64,000 bases of DNA from Flavobacterium psychrophilum. GTDB lineage: Bacteria; Bacteroidota; Bacteroidia; Flavobacteriales; Flavobacteriaceae. This document shows positions 11,406 to 27,780 of this stretch, piece by piece. The stretch is from contig CAMCVA010000002.1 of assembly GCA_945879625.1 (NCBI GenBank), positions 62,001 to 126,000 on the forward strand, given 5' to 3'. Positions within the stretch are counted from its first letter, which is position 1. Every line of letters begins with the position of its first letter. A program made the translations under genes and the position numbers. The notes beneath the pieces are model-generated. The model worked only from the letters and a program-made list of their open reading frames with translations, searched no databases and was not told the origin of the DNA.

Positions 11406-12166
11406 GCTGTCGTGTTTTTGAGTACTGTAATTGGTTTGTTGATATTATTTTTAACTAACTGATTTATAGGGGTGGTATTATAAACACCTTTTGTTTATAA
11501 CTAAATATAGAAAAACAGAACTTTTTCTTGTTTGTGTTTCAAAAATGCGTAATCCAAAATCGAAACCTAAAAAACAACAAAAGTTTGTAGAATTTATTAT
11601 TTAGTTATACCTAAAAAACAGCTATTTATAAACACAAATTGAGCTGTCAACTTATTTACAAAACTACTTTATTTTTACTTATGAACAGTTGTTTATAGGG
11701 TATAAAAAAAGCTATATTATCTAGTCTTTATTAAGTTGTTATACTGTTGATAACCTTTTATTAACTTCTAGTAACGTAAAATACAAGTAAAGTAAAGTAA
11801 ATTTATCAGCCTTATGAACACGCTATAATAACCACCATAGATTAAATTTAATAATCCTTTTATTTTTATTGTCTTTACTAGTTGTTGAAAACTATCCTGA
11901 AATTTAAAAATTAAATTTTATCGAAATTATCCAAATCTGTGTTGCTAATCTTTATAGAAGTAAATAGTTTGTTTGAACACAGATTAAAGAAATAAAAATA
12001 GATTTTTAAATTTGTAGAATTAATAAAATTTGTGTTGCTAATCTTCGCTTAATAAAACTCTAATCTAATTCTATAAATGAAAAGTTATTTTTATACTAAT
12101 TCTCCTCAATAAGGTAGCTTACTACTAGCTTTATTTGTAATTTTCAAACCTGATTGAAAAGACCTC
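11406..12166. other. Gene-free AT-rich region; candidate chromosomal replication origin
   Basis: About 760 bp hold no plausible gene and are roughly 80% A+T by eye. The nonamer TTATNAACA occurs six times between 11478 and 11820: plus strand at 11478, 11626, 11679, 11812; minus strand at 11492 and 11745; there is also a one-mismatch copy, CTATAAACA, on the minus strand at 11690. A related TTATTTACA sits at 11652. Two pairs face each other as inverted repeats (11478/11492 with a 5-bp spacer, 11679/11690 with a 2-bp spacer). The motif differs from the classical DnaA box TTATNCACA at one position. Flanking genes point outward (rpiB left, rnr right). oriC is an inference; operators for a regulator of rnr or rpiB are an alternative. 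Confidence 0.55.
11934..11985. repeat. Inverted repeat upstream of rnr
   Basis: AATCTGTGTT (11934-11943) is exactly complementary to AACACAGATT (11976-11985), separated by 32 bp. The left arm overlaps a 15-bp direct repeat, TGTGTTGCTAATCTT, present at 11938-11952 and again at 12031-12045. No T-run follows, so it does not look like a terminator. Confidence 0.6.
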
Positions 12167-24119: not shown

Positions 24120-24531
24120 TTTTAATTACGAAACCGAGTTTGAATTGACCAATGAATCTGCTGTAGAAAGTTGGATTGGTCGGGTAATTGCTTCCGAACA
24201 AAAATCAGAAGGCGAACTCTCGTATATTTTTTGCGACGACGCCTATTTGTTGGAATTGAATCAACAGTATCTTCAACACGACACCTTAACAGATATAATT
24301 AGTTTTGATTATTCACTAGGCAACGAACTCAGTGGAGATATTTTTATATCGGTAGAACGGGTGCGTGAAAACGCCGAAGATTACAATCAATCATTTGAAA
24401 ATGAATTACTTAGAGTAATTATACATGGTGTTTTGCATTATTGTGGTTACAAAGACAAAACAGAAACCGACGAACAACTGATGCGTCAAAAAGAAAACGA
24501 AAAAATTGCAATGTTTCACGTGGAACAATAA
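24112..24531 (+). CDS. ybeY: rRNA maturation endoribonuclease YbeY
   Basis: YbeY is a small metal-dependent RNase needed for 16S rRNA 3'-end processing and ribosome quality control. The 139-residue protein has the strand DIISFDYS and the metal site HGVLHYCGYKD (near residue 103). The first two His of the HxxxH...H triad are present; the third is Asp here, which I believe is common in Bacteroidota. Its last codons (MFHVEQ) are formed by a parS-like site. It lies in the conserved order DUF4175-ybeY-mnmG. Confidence 0.93.
   Translation: MISFNYETEFELTNESAVESWIGRVIASEQKSEGELSYIFCDDAYLLELNQQYLQHDTLTDIISFDYSLGNELSGDIFISVERVRENAEDYNQSFENELLRVIIHGVLHYCGYKDKTETDEQLMRQKENEKIAMFHVEQ
24512..24527 (+). 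promoter_or_regulatory. parS-like ParB-binding site 1
   Basis: TGTTTCACGTGGAACA is, on the other strand, TGTTCCACGTGAAACA, identical to a well-known Bacillus subtilis parS sequence. It overlaps the last codons of ybeY. ParB (Spo0J) proteins bind such sites near the chromosome origin to organise segregation. A second copy lies 1.9 kb downstream. Confidence 0.85.
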
Positions 24532-24545
24532 GAAAATAGAGATCT

Positions 24546-26417
24546 ATGTTCAAAGAAGTTTATGATGTTATCGTAGTTGGAGCTGGTCATGCAGGTTGCG
24601 AAGCGGCTGCGGCTGCCGCCAACATGGGATGCTCCACGCTTTTGGTGACGATGAATTTACAAAATATAGCGCAAATGTCCTGTAATCCTGCGATGGGCGG
24701 GATAGCCAAAGGGCAAATCGTACGTGAAATTGACGCGATGGGCGGTTATTCAGGAATCGTTTCTGACAAAACAGCCATACAATTCAAAATGCTCAACAAA
24801 TCAAAAGGCCCTGCGATGTGGTCGCCACGTGTGCAGAGTGACCGCATGCGATTTGCTGAAGAATGGCGATGGATGCTGGAACAGACACCTAATTTGGATT
24901 TCTACCAAGAAATGGCCAACGGCTTGCTCATAGAAAATGGAGTTGTAACCGGTATTTCCACAGTCTTGGGTGTACAAATTAAATCAAAAACGGTGGTGCT
25001 CACCAACGGCACATTTTTGAACGGCTTGATTCATATTGGGGAAAAACAGTTTGGCGGCGGTAGAGCAGGAGAAAGCGCTTCGTTTGGTATTACCGAAGAT
25101 TTGCTTAAAGCAGGTTTTACGGCAGGTAGAATGAAGACAGGAACACCTCCGCGTGTTGATGGTCGTTCGCTAGATTATTCCAAAATGAACGAAGAAAAAG
25201 GGGATGAGGTTCCTGCAAAATTTTCGTATTCGCCCATTACAAAACCGCTGACCATCCAAAAATCTTGTCACATGACGTATACTTCGTTGGAGGTGCATGA
25301 TATTTTGCGTGAAGGATTTGATCGTTCACCGATGTTTAATGGACGGATTAAAAGTTTGGGGCCACGGTATTGTCCCTCTATTGAAGACAAAATAAATCGT
25401 TTTACTGACAAAGAGCGTCACCAATTATTTGTAGAACCTGAGGGCTGGAACACCGTTGAAGTATATGTAAATGGATTTTCTACTTCTTTGCCCGAAGACG
25501 TTCAGTTTAAAGCGTTGCGTTCGGTGGCGGGCTTTGAAAAAGTAAAATTCTTTAGACCGGGTTATGCCATTGAATATGATTATTTTCCACCAACCCAATT
25601 AAAACACTCCTTAGAAACCAAATTGATCAGCGGCTTGTTTTTTGCCGGACAAATAAATGGCACAACGGGTTACGAAGAAGCTGCTTCGCAAGGCTTGATG
25701 GCTGGAATAAACGCAGCCCTTCGCGTGCAAGAAAAAGAACCCCTTATCCTAAAAAGAGACGAGGCCTATATTGGGGTTTTGATCGATGATTTAATTACAA
25801 AAGGTACCGAAGAACCGTATCGCATGTTCACTTCGCGAGCCGAATACCGCACTTTGTTGCGTCAAGACAATGCTGATTTTCGCCTCACGCCCAAATCACA
25901 TGCGCTTGGATTAGCTTCTGAAGATCGTTTGCGTCGCATGGAATACAAGTTGAATGAATCTGAAAAAATGGTAGCTTTTTACAAAGAGACCAGCATAACT
26001 GCAGCCGAAGCCAATGTGCTTTTGGCCAAAAAAGATTCGGCTTTAGTGTCGCAATCAGACAAAATGTTTAAGCTTTTTTCTAGACCGCAAATTGATTTGC
26101 AGGATATGCTCAGTTTAGAGAAAGTAAATGAATATGCAACCGTAAACCAGCTGGACGAAGAGGTGCTGGAGCAAGCCGAAATTCAAGTAAAGTATTCGGG
26201 TTATATAGAAAAAGAGCGAAACAACGCCAACAAACTTACCCGTTTGGAAGACGTGAAAATCCCTGAGTTTTTTGATTACTCTAAAATCAAATCGATGTCA
26301 ATCGAGGCGCGTCAAAAATTAACTCAGATACGACCAGTTACTATTTCGCAAGCCTCCCGTATTAGCGGGGTTTCGCCAAGCGATATCTCGGTGTTGTTAA
26401 TCTACATGGGACGATAA
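24546..26417 (+). CDS. mnmG: tRNA uridine-5-carboxymethylaminomethyl modification enzyme MnmG (GidA)
   Basis: MnmG, with MnmE, adds the cmnm5 group to the wobble uridine of several tRNAs using FAD and methylenetetrahydrofolate. The 623-residue protein has the FAD-binding GAGHAGCEAAAAAANMG at residues 12-28, the block MSCNPAMGGIAKGQIVREID, and the conserved C-terminal helical domain ending GVSPSDISVLLIYMGR. All are intact. It lies 14 bp after ybeY and is flanked by two parS-like sites. mnmG is a classic origin-linked gene in many bacteria. Confidence 0.97.
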   Translation: MFKEVYDVIVVGAGHAGCEAAAAAANMGCSTLLVTMNLQNIAQMSCNPAMGGIAKGQIVREIDAMGGYSGIVSDKTAIQFKMLNKSKGPAMWSPRVQSDRMRFAEEWRWMLEQTPNLDFYQEMANGLLIENGVVTGISTVLGVQIKSKTVVLTNGTFLNGLIHIGEKQFGGGRAGESASFGITEDLLKAGFTAGRMKTGTPPRVDGRSLDYSKMNEEKGDEVPAKFSYSPITKPLTIQKSCHMTYTSLEVHDILREGFDRSPMFNGRIKSLGPRYCPSIEDKINRFTDKERHQLFVEPEGWNTVEVYVNGFSTSLPEDVQFKALRSVAGFEKVKFFRPGYAIEYDYFPPTQLKHSLETKLISGLFFAGQINGTTGYEEAASQGLMAGINAALRVQEKEPLILKRDEAYIGVLIDDLITKGTEEPYRMFTSRAEYRTLLRQDNADFRLTPKSHALGLASEDRLRRMEYKLNESEKMVAFYKETSITAAEANVLLAKKDSALVSQSDKMFKLFSRPQIDLQDMLSLEKVNEYATVNQLDEEVLEQAEIQVKYSGYIEKERNNANKLTRLEDVKIPEFFDYSKIKSMSIEARQKLTQIRPVTISQASRISGVSPSDISVLLIYMGR

Positions 26418-26932
26418 TGTTTCACGTGGAACGAAATAAGAAAAGGCTTATAAACACCGCCTTTGCATTGATTTTATGGGCGTGTAGTATGGCTTGTTCG
26501 GGTTCACGAAACACTGTGCAAATTCAAGATTATCTTTTGGTAGGAAACGGAATAGAGTTGCAAAGCCATGTTCCCTTAACCGCTTTTGTGTTTGAGAATA
26601 ATCAAAAAAATCCGCCGATAGAAAAGTTCTTATCCCTAAAATTTAAGCTGTCCAATTATTTTGACAAGCAGTTTTGGGTAACCCTAAACAATGCAAAATT
26701 TAAACTCGTGGTCTATGATGCGGCTGAGTTTGAAAAATTCATCGGAAGCGGAAATTATGCGCAAATTAATCAAGAGCCCGAAAACGCAAAGTATGGAAAT
26801 CAACCTAAATTTATTGCTTTTTCTATGGTGTCATCCACCAACGAAGACTGCCTTTCTGATCAGTCCCTGTATCAGCATCTTGCCCTTACGTATTTAAAAA
26901 ACCTAAAAGACGACTATTGCAATCAACAATGA
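26417..26932 (+). CDS. Predicted lipoprotein of unknown function
   Basis: The ATG shares its A with the mnmG TAA stop (TAATG). The first residues MFHVERNKKR are encoded by the parS-like site and form a basic n-region. A hydrophobic stretch then leads to two possible lipobox Cys (LILWAC and SMAC near residues 23 and 27), so the 171-residue product is probably a lipoprotein. The remainder has no motif I recognise. It overlaps the next gene by 4 bp (ATGA), so the three genes mnmG, this one and the methyltransferase are likely co-transcribed. Confidence 0.7.
   Translation: MFHVERNKKRLINTAFALILWACSMACSGSRNTVQIQDYLLVGNGIELQSHVPLTAFVFENNQKNPPIEKFLSLKFKLSNYFDKQFWVTLNNAKFKLVVYDAAEFEKFIGSGNYAQINQEPENAKYGNQPKFIAFSMVSSTNEDCLSDQSLYQHLALTYLKNLKDDYCNQQ
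26418..26433 (+). promoter_or_regulatory. parS-like ParB-binding site 2
   Basis: TGTTTCACGTGGAACG matches site 1 at 15 of 16 positions. It overlaps the first codons of the following lipoprotein gene and begins one base after the mnmG stop codon. Confidence 0.78.
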
Positions 26933-27780
26933 ATACAACTCCAAAAACTCTATTCTTAGATCAAGTAGAAGATCACACGGTGAGTCACCAAAAATTTGAC
27001 TTGCATTACGACGCGCGTCTAGATTTGTTGCTTACGCATCCGCAGCCGGCATTGGATGAACTTGGCGCTTACTACGAAAGCGAAGACTATATTTCTCACA
27101 CCGACGCCAAACGCAGCTTGTTTGAGAAAGCCTATCATTGGGTAAAAAAACGAGCACTCAATCAAAAAATACAACTACTCGAAAAACAGCAACCCAACAA
27201 AGGAACCCTGCTAGACATGGGATGTGGAACCGGTGATTTTTTGCAAGTAGCCCATCAAGCAGGTTGGCAGGTGCAGGGAATAGAACCCAATAAAAAGGCC
27301 CGGCAGATTGCTGCATCAAAAGGAGTGACGTTTCTTACAGGAACTCCAGAAGCAAAAGACCAGCAGTTTGACGCCATCACGCTTTGGCACGTATTGGAGC
27401 ATTTGCCCAACTTGGAAGCTCAAATAAAAGAACTGCAACGCTTGCTAAAACCCAGCGGAACCTTGGTTATAGCGGTACCAAATTATAAATCATTTGATGC
27501 GGGCTATTACAAACAATTTTGGGCAGCCTATGATGTGCCCCGACATTTGTGGCATTTTTCTAAAACCAGTATACAGCGATTGGTTGAACATGTGGGCATG
27601 GAAGTTGTTTCTGTTCGTCCGATGAAATTTGATTCGTTTTATGTGTCGCTGTTGTCTGAAAAATATAAAACCGGAAAAATGAATTACCCCAAAGCCTTTT
27701 GGGTAGGATTGTACTCAAACTGGAAAGGAAGTCAAACAAAGGAGTATTCGTCGCATATTTACGTGATAAAAAACAGCTAA
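26929..27780 (+). CDS. Class I SAM-dependent methyltransferase
   Basis: The 283-residue protein has the SAM-binding motif I LLDMGCGTGDFLQVA near residue 92, the acidic ribose contact in QGIEPNK, and the post-motif ITLWHVLEHLPNLE, all typical of class I enzymes of the UbiE/COQ5-like (Methyltransf_23) type. An N-terminal ~70-residue part (LLTHPQPALDELGAYYESEDY) is shared by a Bacteroidota subgroup. The substrate is unknown. The ATG at 26929 overlaps the previous stop by 4 bp and is preferred over an upstream TTG. Confidence 0.88.
   Translation: MNTTPKTLFLDQVEDHTVSHQKFDLHYDARLDLLLTHPQPALDELGAYYESEDYISHTDAKRSLFEKAYHWVKKRALNQKIQLLEKQQPNKGTLLDMGCGTGDFLQVAHQAGWQVQGIEPNKKARQIAASKGVTFLTGTPEAKDQQFDAITLWHVLEHLPNLEAQIKELQRLLKPSGTLVIAVPNYKSFDAGYYKQFWAAYDVPRHLWHFSKTSIQRLVEHVGMEVVSVRPMKFDSFYVSLLSEKYKTGKMNYPKAFWVGLYSNWKGSQTKEYSSHIYVIKNS

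Follow-up and report, generated by a model that had tools for sequence, protein, structure and literature searches.

The 64-kb stretch of DNA analysed here (the window) carries two copies of a near-perfect palindrome, one at each end of mnmG (gidA), which raises the question of what these sites are and why they stand at this gene. On the evidence set out below, both are very probably chromosomal parS sites, predicted to form a centromere of two sites close to the replication origin, and they most likely help to separate copied chromosomes. The initial annotation had already read them as ParB-binding sites, an interpretation that is well supported by the comparative data. Beyond it, we observed that the sites keep an almost constant address, beside mnmG, throughout the phylum and that parB, as well as dnaA in this clade, lies remote from it.

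Table 1. Features of the window considered in this study.
Feature	Position	Strand	Remarks
parS-like site 1, TGTTTCACGTGGAACA	24512..24527	+	exact; YbeY end, read as MFHVEQ
parS-like site 2, TGTTTCACGTGGAACG	26418..26433	+	one mismatch; start of next ORF, read as MFHVER
mnmG (gidA), between both sites	24546..26417	+	PF01134, E 7e-159
ybeY, endoribonuclease; site 1 forms its last codons	24112..24531	+	PF02130
171-aa ORF, lipoprotein-like by eye; start codon overlaps site 2	26417..26932	+	ORF list, Pfam
Methyltransferase, Methyltransf_23	26917..27780	+	Pfam
Candidate oriC: AT-rich gap of 761 bp that separates the divergent rpiB and rnr	11406..12166		4 of the window's 7 TTATMAACA

The first site lies within the last ybeY codons, and mnmG begins 18 bp past its end; the second starts one base past the mnmG open reading frame and takes in part of the following ORF's start codon. 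Each has the DNA sequence ATG TTT CAC GTG GAA C.., which the gene that it touches reads in frame as MFHVE. Site 1 is the exact consensus on the reverse strand and site 2 departs from it at the last base only; a 16-mer identical to site 2 stands directly 3′ of mnmG in another genome (G080:C1:2568650). Two places in the window match TGTTYCACGTGRAACA at up to one mismatch, whereas 200 windows simulated with a first-order Markov model averaged 0.005 sites and none contained two or more. The pair that the initial annotation had reported at both mnmG ends is thus present, and this consensus match, together with its rarity in simulated windows, supports the assignment to parS. The reverse complement of site 1, earlier equated with a Bacillus subtilis parS, fits the B. 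subtilis consensus TGTTNCACGTGAAACA as quoted in the available text of PMC4409726. With up to three mismatches on both strands, the window shows five matches; shuffled sequences averaged 0.79, and five was reached in 2 out of 100, so that chance may account for the count at this looser threshold. The only further position recovered there, 55223, lacks CACGTG. Judged by sequence, both sites are ordinary parS.

We then compared the 80 best mnmG loci from a species-level genome collection, mostly from Flavobacteriaceae. The 14-base core GTTYCACGTGRAAC, allowing one mismatch, was present at both ends of mnmG in 74 of these loci, upstream only in four, downstream only in one and at neither end in one; the exact core stands at both ends in 67. 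The form of the site depends on the genus, with TGTTCCACGTGGAACA in many marine genera, TGTTTCACGTGAAACA in Chryseobacterium, and mixed forms together with local arrays in some Flavobacterium. At 31 of the 80 loci, as counted in a single reading frame, the upstream site closes an upstream open frame of at least 100 codons as [ML]FHV[EK]. Whole-genome scans for the 16-mer at up to one mismatch gave matches in 24/24 relatives, at 73 places, 70 of which lie within about 10 kb of mnmG by a hand count of site positions against mnmG positions (exceptions: G002:C53, G016:C2:330069 and G018:2059915); a reversed-pattern control, run for these scans and for those of the phylum genomes below, returned 0 or 1 match per genome and strand.

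Several minor features were seen in the same set. In Flavobacterium sp. MC2016-06 (G002:C6:7251-7617), four copies of TGTTCCATGTGGAACA, which has one core change, form a parS-like array that adjoins the parS cluster at 116–118 bp spacing. A recurrent third near-parS site, TCTTCCACGTGAAACA, lies about 4.5–5.6 kb 3′ of mnmG at five loci (L016, L018, L019, L023 and L028). Records labelled Chitinophaga pinensis (L001) and Limnohabitans (L011) carry site-bracketed mnmG genes 87% and 80% identical to that of the window, and are probably mislabelled records or mixed bins.

A draw across the phylum comprised 148 genomes, with mnmG found in 147; G139 has no mnmG match and stands outside the 147. The exact TGTTYCACGTGRAACA is present in 108 of the 148. 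A core site at mnmG with at most one mismatch was detected in 139/147 genomes, counting overlaps with the first or last mnmG codons and excluding the row of the window itself. Under strict limits (core within 600 bp of an mnmG end) the figure is 137/147, made up of 58 genomes with sites at both ends, 40 downstream only and 39 upstream only, leaving 10 with none; beyond the mnmG flanks there were 23 core matches in 830 kb. For a near-complete set of 26 genomes, in which the mnmG contig is approximately the whole genome, 58 of 63 16-mer sites (up to one mismatch) lie within 15 kb of mnmG. The remaining five all carry a single mismatch, and every exact copy falls within the 15 kb. Copies are thus restricted rather than scattered in relatives, the outcome that the initial annotation had named as support, and their concentration at mnmG, in near relatives and across the phylum, further supports the parS assignment.

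The link between parS and mnmG can nonetheless break, because eight of the 147 genomes have no core site at the gene, namely G160, G114 and a group of six (G087, G060, G132, G057, G154 and G037). G160 carries 16-mers 0.6 and 1.8 kb upstream of mnmG, and whole-genome scans of G114 and G139 gave no 16-mer at up to one mismatch. At the same threshold, the only two 16-mers of G026 lie far from mnmG and none was found in G155; both genomes have looser core matches at mnmG.

ParB (PF02195) was found in 24/24 near relatives and in 148/148 phylum genomes, a check on the earlier reading that was run in relatives and came out in its favour, lending additional support to the parS assignment. Alternatively, the palindromes could only resemble parS and serve as operators at which an unrelated regulator controls mnmG and the genes around it. 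They do stand at gene ends by one gene phylum-wide, with mnmG as the constant neighbour, and several genomes hold good copies solely there. We consider this explanation very unlikely, however, given that the sequence is the parS consensus itself, that ParB is universal in the phylum set and that this class of 16-mer has no other concentration in the scanned genomes. Furthermore, many genomes that keep rsmG have their sites 3′ of mnmG or within rsmG, which would be odd for an mnmG operator, and the group of six above have their best 16-mers on another contig.

If the two sites are parS, their action would be expected to follow the known ParABS mechanism. In a Flavobacterium relative, ParB carries N-terminal, HTH and C-terminal domains and contains GERR and ENIQR; among the ParB/Spo0J/Noc crystal structures that it matches are 7bnk, 1vz0, 6t1f and 7nfu. 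On this basis, ParB is expected to load onto both sites as a CTP-dependent clamp, a step that draws on knowledge of the protein family. ParB dimers would bind each parS, close as a CTP-bound clamp and slide onto the adjoining DNA, here mnmG and its flanks; the ParB–DNA complex would then follow ParA, moving newly copied origins apart.

In most studied systems, parB lies near its sites. The location of parA and parB, which the initial annotation had left to be found, was established in relatives: parB adjoins parA in the one Flavobacterium relative examined, and among the matches listed it is on the mnmG contig in 24 of the 26 near-complete genomes (G075 and G129 left out). In 24/24 of these measurable genomes, parB lies between 0.30 Mb (G026) and 2.24 Mb (G056) from mnmG by the shorter way round; this and the distances of sites, rnr and dnaA to mnmG were worked out by hand. 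Such remoteness, along with degenerate copies in some species (Tenacibaculum, Polaribacter), would fit sites that are relics, former parS now unused since parB moved far off, which appears extremely improbable to us. ParB acts in trans, so that distance alone is no sign of decay. Moreover, the core is kept at up to one mismatch at mnmG in nearly all of the phylum set, some Flavobacterium have amplified it into local arrays, and the scanned genomes hold no better sites elsewhere, with exceptions such as G026.

ParB loads Smc in other bacteria. Smc was not recognised in 22 of the 24 near relatives (TIGR02168, 18 candidates per genome scored), and therefore ParB loading of Smc looks unlikely in the window's clade. 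For the phylum set, with four candidates per genome scored, TIGR02168 gave no match in 20/148 genomes, which comprise 19 members of the window's clade and G095; with so few candidates scored, a missing match does not prove that Smc is absent. A connection between mnmG bracketing and loss of Smc was not supported, as other lineages with sites at both ends have Smc.

The position of the origin was assessed using third-codon-position skew, split by gene strand, which changes sign within about 300 kb or less of mnmG in seven sampled genomes. The change falls between the mnmG stretch and the next 20 kb in G018 (Polaribacter sp. BM10). Relative to mnmG, it lies between −50 and +30 kb in G118, where the signal is weak; between −50 and +100 kb in G080, where the middle sample is one-sided; at +30 to +100 kb in G157; at +100 to +280 kb in G053 and G075; and between −120 and +100 kb in G147, which has two unusable samples and a weak signal. 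Single samples break the trend in G118 (−600 kb), G157 (+280 kb), G075 (−300 kb) and G018 (488 kb). From these sign changes, mnmG therefore appears origin-proximal in the sampled relatives, not always exactly at the skew switch, consistent with the assignment of the sites to parS.

The origin is often placed at dnaA. This would probably be wrong in the window's clade, growth-rate estimates included, because dnaA lies 0.75–1.70 Mb from mnmG in 7/7 near-complete genomes of that clade (G018, G052, G080, G118, G126, G141 and G157), and skew puts the origin near mnmG in G018, G080, G118 and G157 despite the remote dnaA. Elsewhere in the near-complete set, dnaA is within about 10 kb of mnmG in G075, G086, G098 and G129, and at intermediate or large distance in the other fifteen.

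The initial annotation had also held that two independent signals place the window near the origin. The skew near mnmG in relatives supports this placement, but the signals within the window itself are weaker than claimed: third-position skew there tracks gene strand and shows no switch within 64 kb, and the canonical nonamer TTATCCACA does not cluster in the suggested origin gap (at up to one mismatch, 12 copies in the window against 17.9 expected, two of them in the gap). The distance from the sites to this gap is 12–15 kb, as claimed. The motif TTATMAACA (Table 1) was picked after inspecting the gap, so its enrichment there is a lead only. Polaribacter sp. BM10 has a gap near rnr that contains five of the nine TTATMAACA copies in its 20-kb stretch; other 20-kb stretches of that genome hold 0–6 copies, and the 144-aa ORF beside this gap is probably rpiB. 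Among the 24 relatives, rnr is on the mnmG contig, 3–32 kb off, in 21 and on a different contig in three. We regard the rpiB–rnr gap as a fair but unproven oriC candidate.

Set beside ParABS of the B. subtilis type, the system described here has the same consensus, with a canonical ParB and probably origin-proximal sites in relatives; it differs in that two sites at the mnmG ends are nearly the sole copies in scanned relatives, and in that parB, in all 24 near-complete genomes measured, lies 0.30–2.24 Mb away rather than by the origin. Many bacteria keep their par genes beside the origin, according to the available text of PMC4409726. In Thermus thermophilus HB27, described in the same text, the single parSc site is located within gidB, and its binding by ParB was demonstrated by gel shift and competition. 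This sole, ParB-bound parS supports our assignment and shares the gidA–gidB neighbourhood with the sites of the window, whereas in Thermus parAB directly adjoins and dnaA is close, unlike the window, where mnmG has neither rsmG nor parAB alongside (PMC4409726, available text).

Another comparison is offered by Hi-C data on Bacteroides caecimuris and Muribaculum intestinale, which belong to the same phylum as the window and whose parS, with the same consensus at two mismatches, were placed at the origin (PMC10197239, available text). The placement of the B. caecimuris parS cluster at the origin is a further argument for the parS assignment, and the same account states that dnaA does not always mark the origin. 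In its available text, mnmG or a constant gene address is unmentioned, and the two species are described as having no known condensin, whereas 128 of the 148 phylum genomes analysed here match Smc (TIGR02168).

The literature searched contained no account of parS beside mnmG, nor of ParABS in a Flavobacterium, and none of the near-constant gene address, the remote parB or a site read into different proteins by lineage, although the arrangement may be tabulated in the Livny 2007 parS survey. As far as the literature searched shows, chromosome segregation in this phylum is little studied, and mnmG could serve throughout it as an easy marker of the centromere and, approximately, of the origin. 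More generally, parS would be a landmark tied to a gene, with the genes acting on it in trans able to relocate freely.

Why the sites have stayed at mnmG is a separate question, which we approached through gene order. In a 148-row tree of mnmG proteins (FastTree only, long branches flagged), presence of parS at mnmG changed 5 times, compared with at least 49 changes of the upstream neighbour family (19 without singletons) and at least 30 of the downstream one (7 without singletons); the families are single-linkage clusters of ORFs of at least 100 aa, in which singletons inflate the change counts. On the upstream side, the median gap is 15.5 bp between site and mnmG and 20.5 bp between site and outer neighbour; on the downstream side, the corresponding values are 9 and 6 bp. 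Where sites bracket mnmG, the inner pair is separated by a median of 1906 bp, which matches the length of the gene. It is likely that parS is kept at mnmG by plain inheritance and that the link itself is functionless, an account that concerns the arrangement only and is compatible with the parS assignment. The tight spacing between site and mnmG leaves little room for breaks, and parS within Thermus gidB (PMC4409726, available text) points to an old shared neighbourhood. The outer gaps are about equally short, yet the neighbours turned over far more often than parS, an argument against plain inheritance that is suggestive only, because separating a site from mnmG may impair expression of the gene in ordinary ways. 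A functional link, in which clamps from both ends would cover mnmG, its dosage or transcription would be coupled to centromere state and selection would keep the parS–mnmG–parS block, seems to us unlikely; if it were true, tRNA wobble modification, through mnmG, would be tied to centromere state.

The genes following mnmG bear on the history of the arrangement. In 55/147 genomes the gene after mnmG belongs to the RsmG cluster, and all six members tested were RsmG/GidB (PF02527). In these genomes the sites are often coding at the rsmG start, as MFHVKH, VFHVKH or MFHVEH, and in a Gracilimonas-like clade the site is read as VSRET near codon 52 of rsmG; lineages of the cluster with upstream sites only have rsmG without such a coding site. 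With or without rsmG, the downstream site often lies 1–14 bp past the mnmG stop. The window does not have the gidA-gidB-parA-parB origin-cluster layout, with rsmG and parAB after mnmG and dnaA close: there, mnmG is followed by the 171-aa ORF, for which a Pfam search gave no match, and then by the methyltransferase, whose family, Methyltransf_23, is also the downstream-neighbour family at 21/147 phylum mnmG loci (Pfam, one representative tested).

Since sites are often written into rsmG where rsmG still follows mnmG, the comparison suggests that the bracket in the window is a remnant of a gidA-gidB(rsmG)-parA-parB origin cluster, and we infer that parS in the gidA–gidB region is old. From such a cluster, parAB would have left, followed or preceded by rsmG in many lineages and by dnaA in the window's clade, with the sites staying at the mnmG ends; judged from position alone, the downstream site may descend from one at the rsmG start codon. 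At two loci (L190 and L201), the site falls within the final codons of mnmG, where it is read as VSRET or VPRET.
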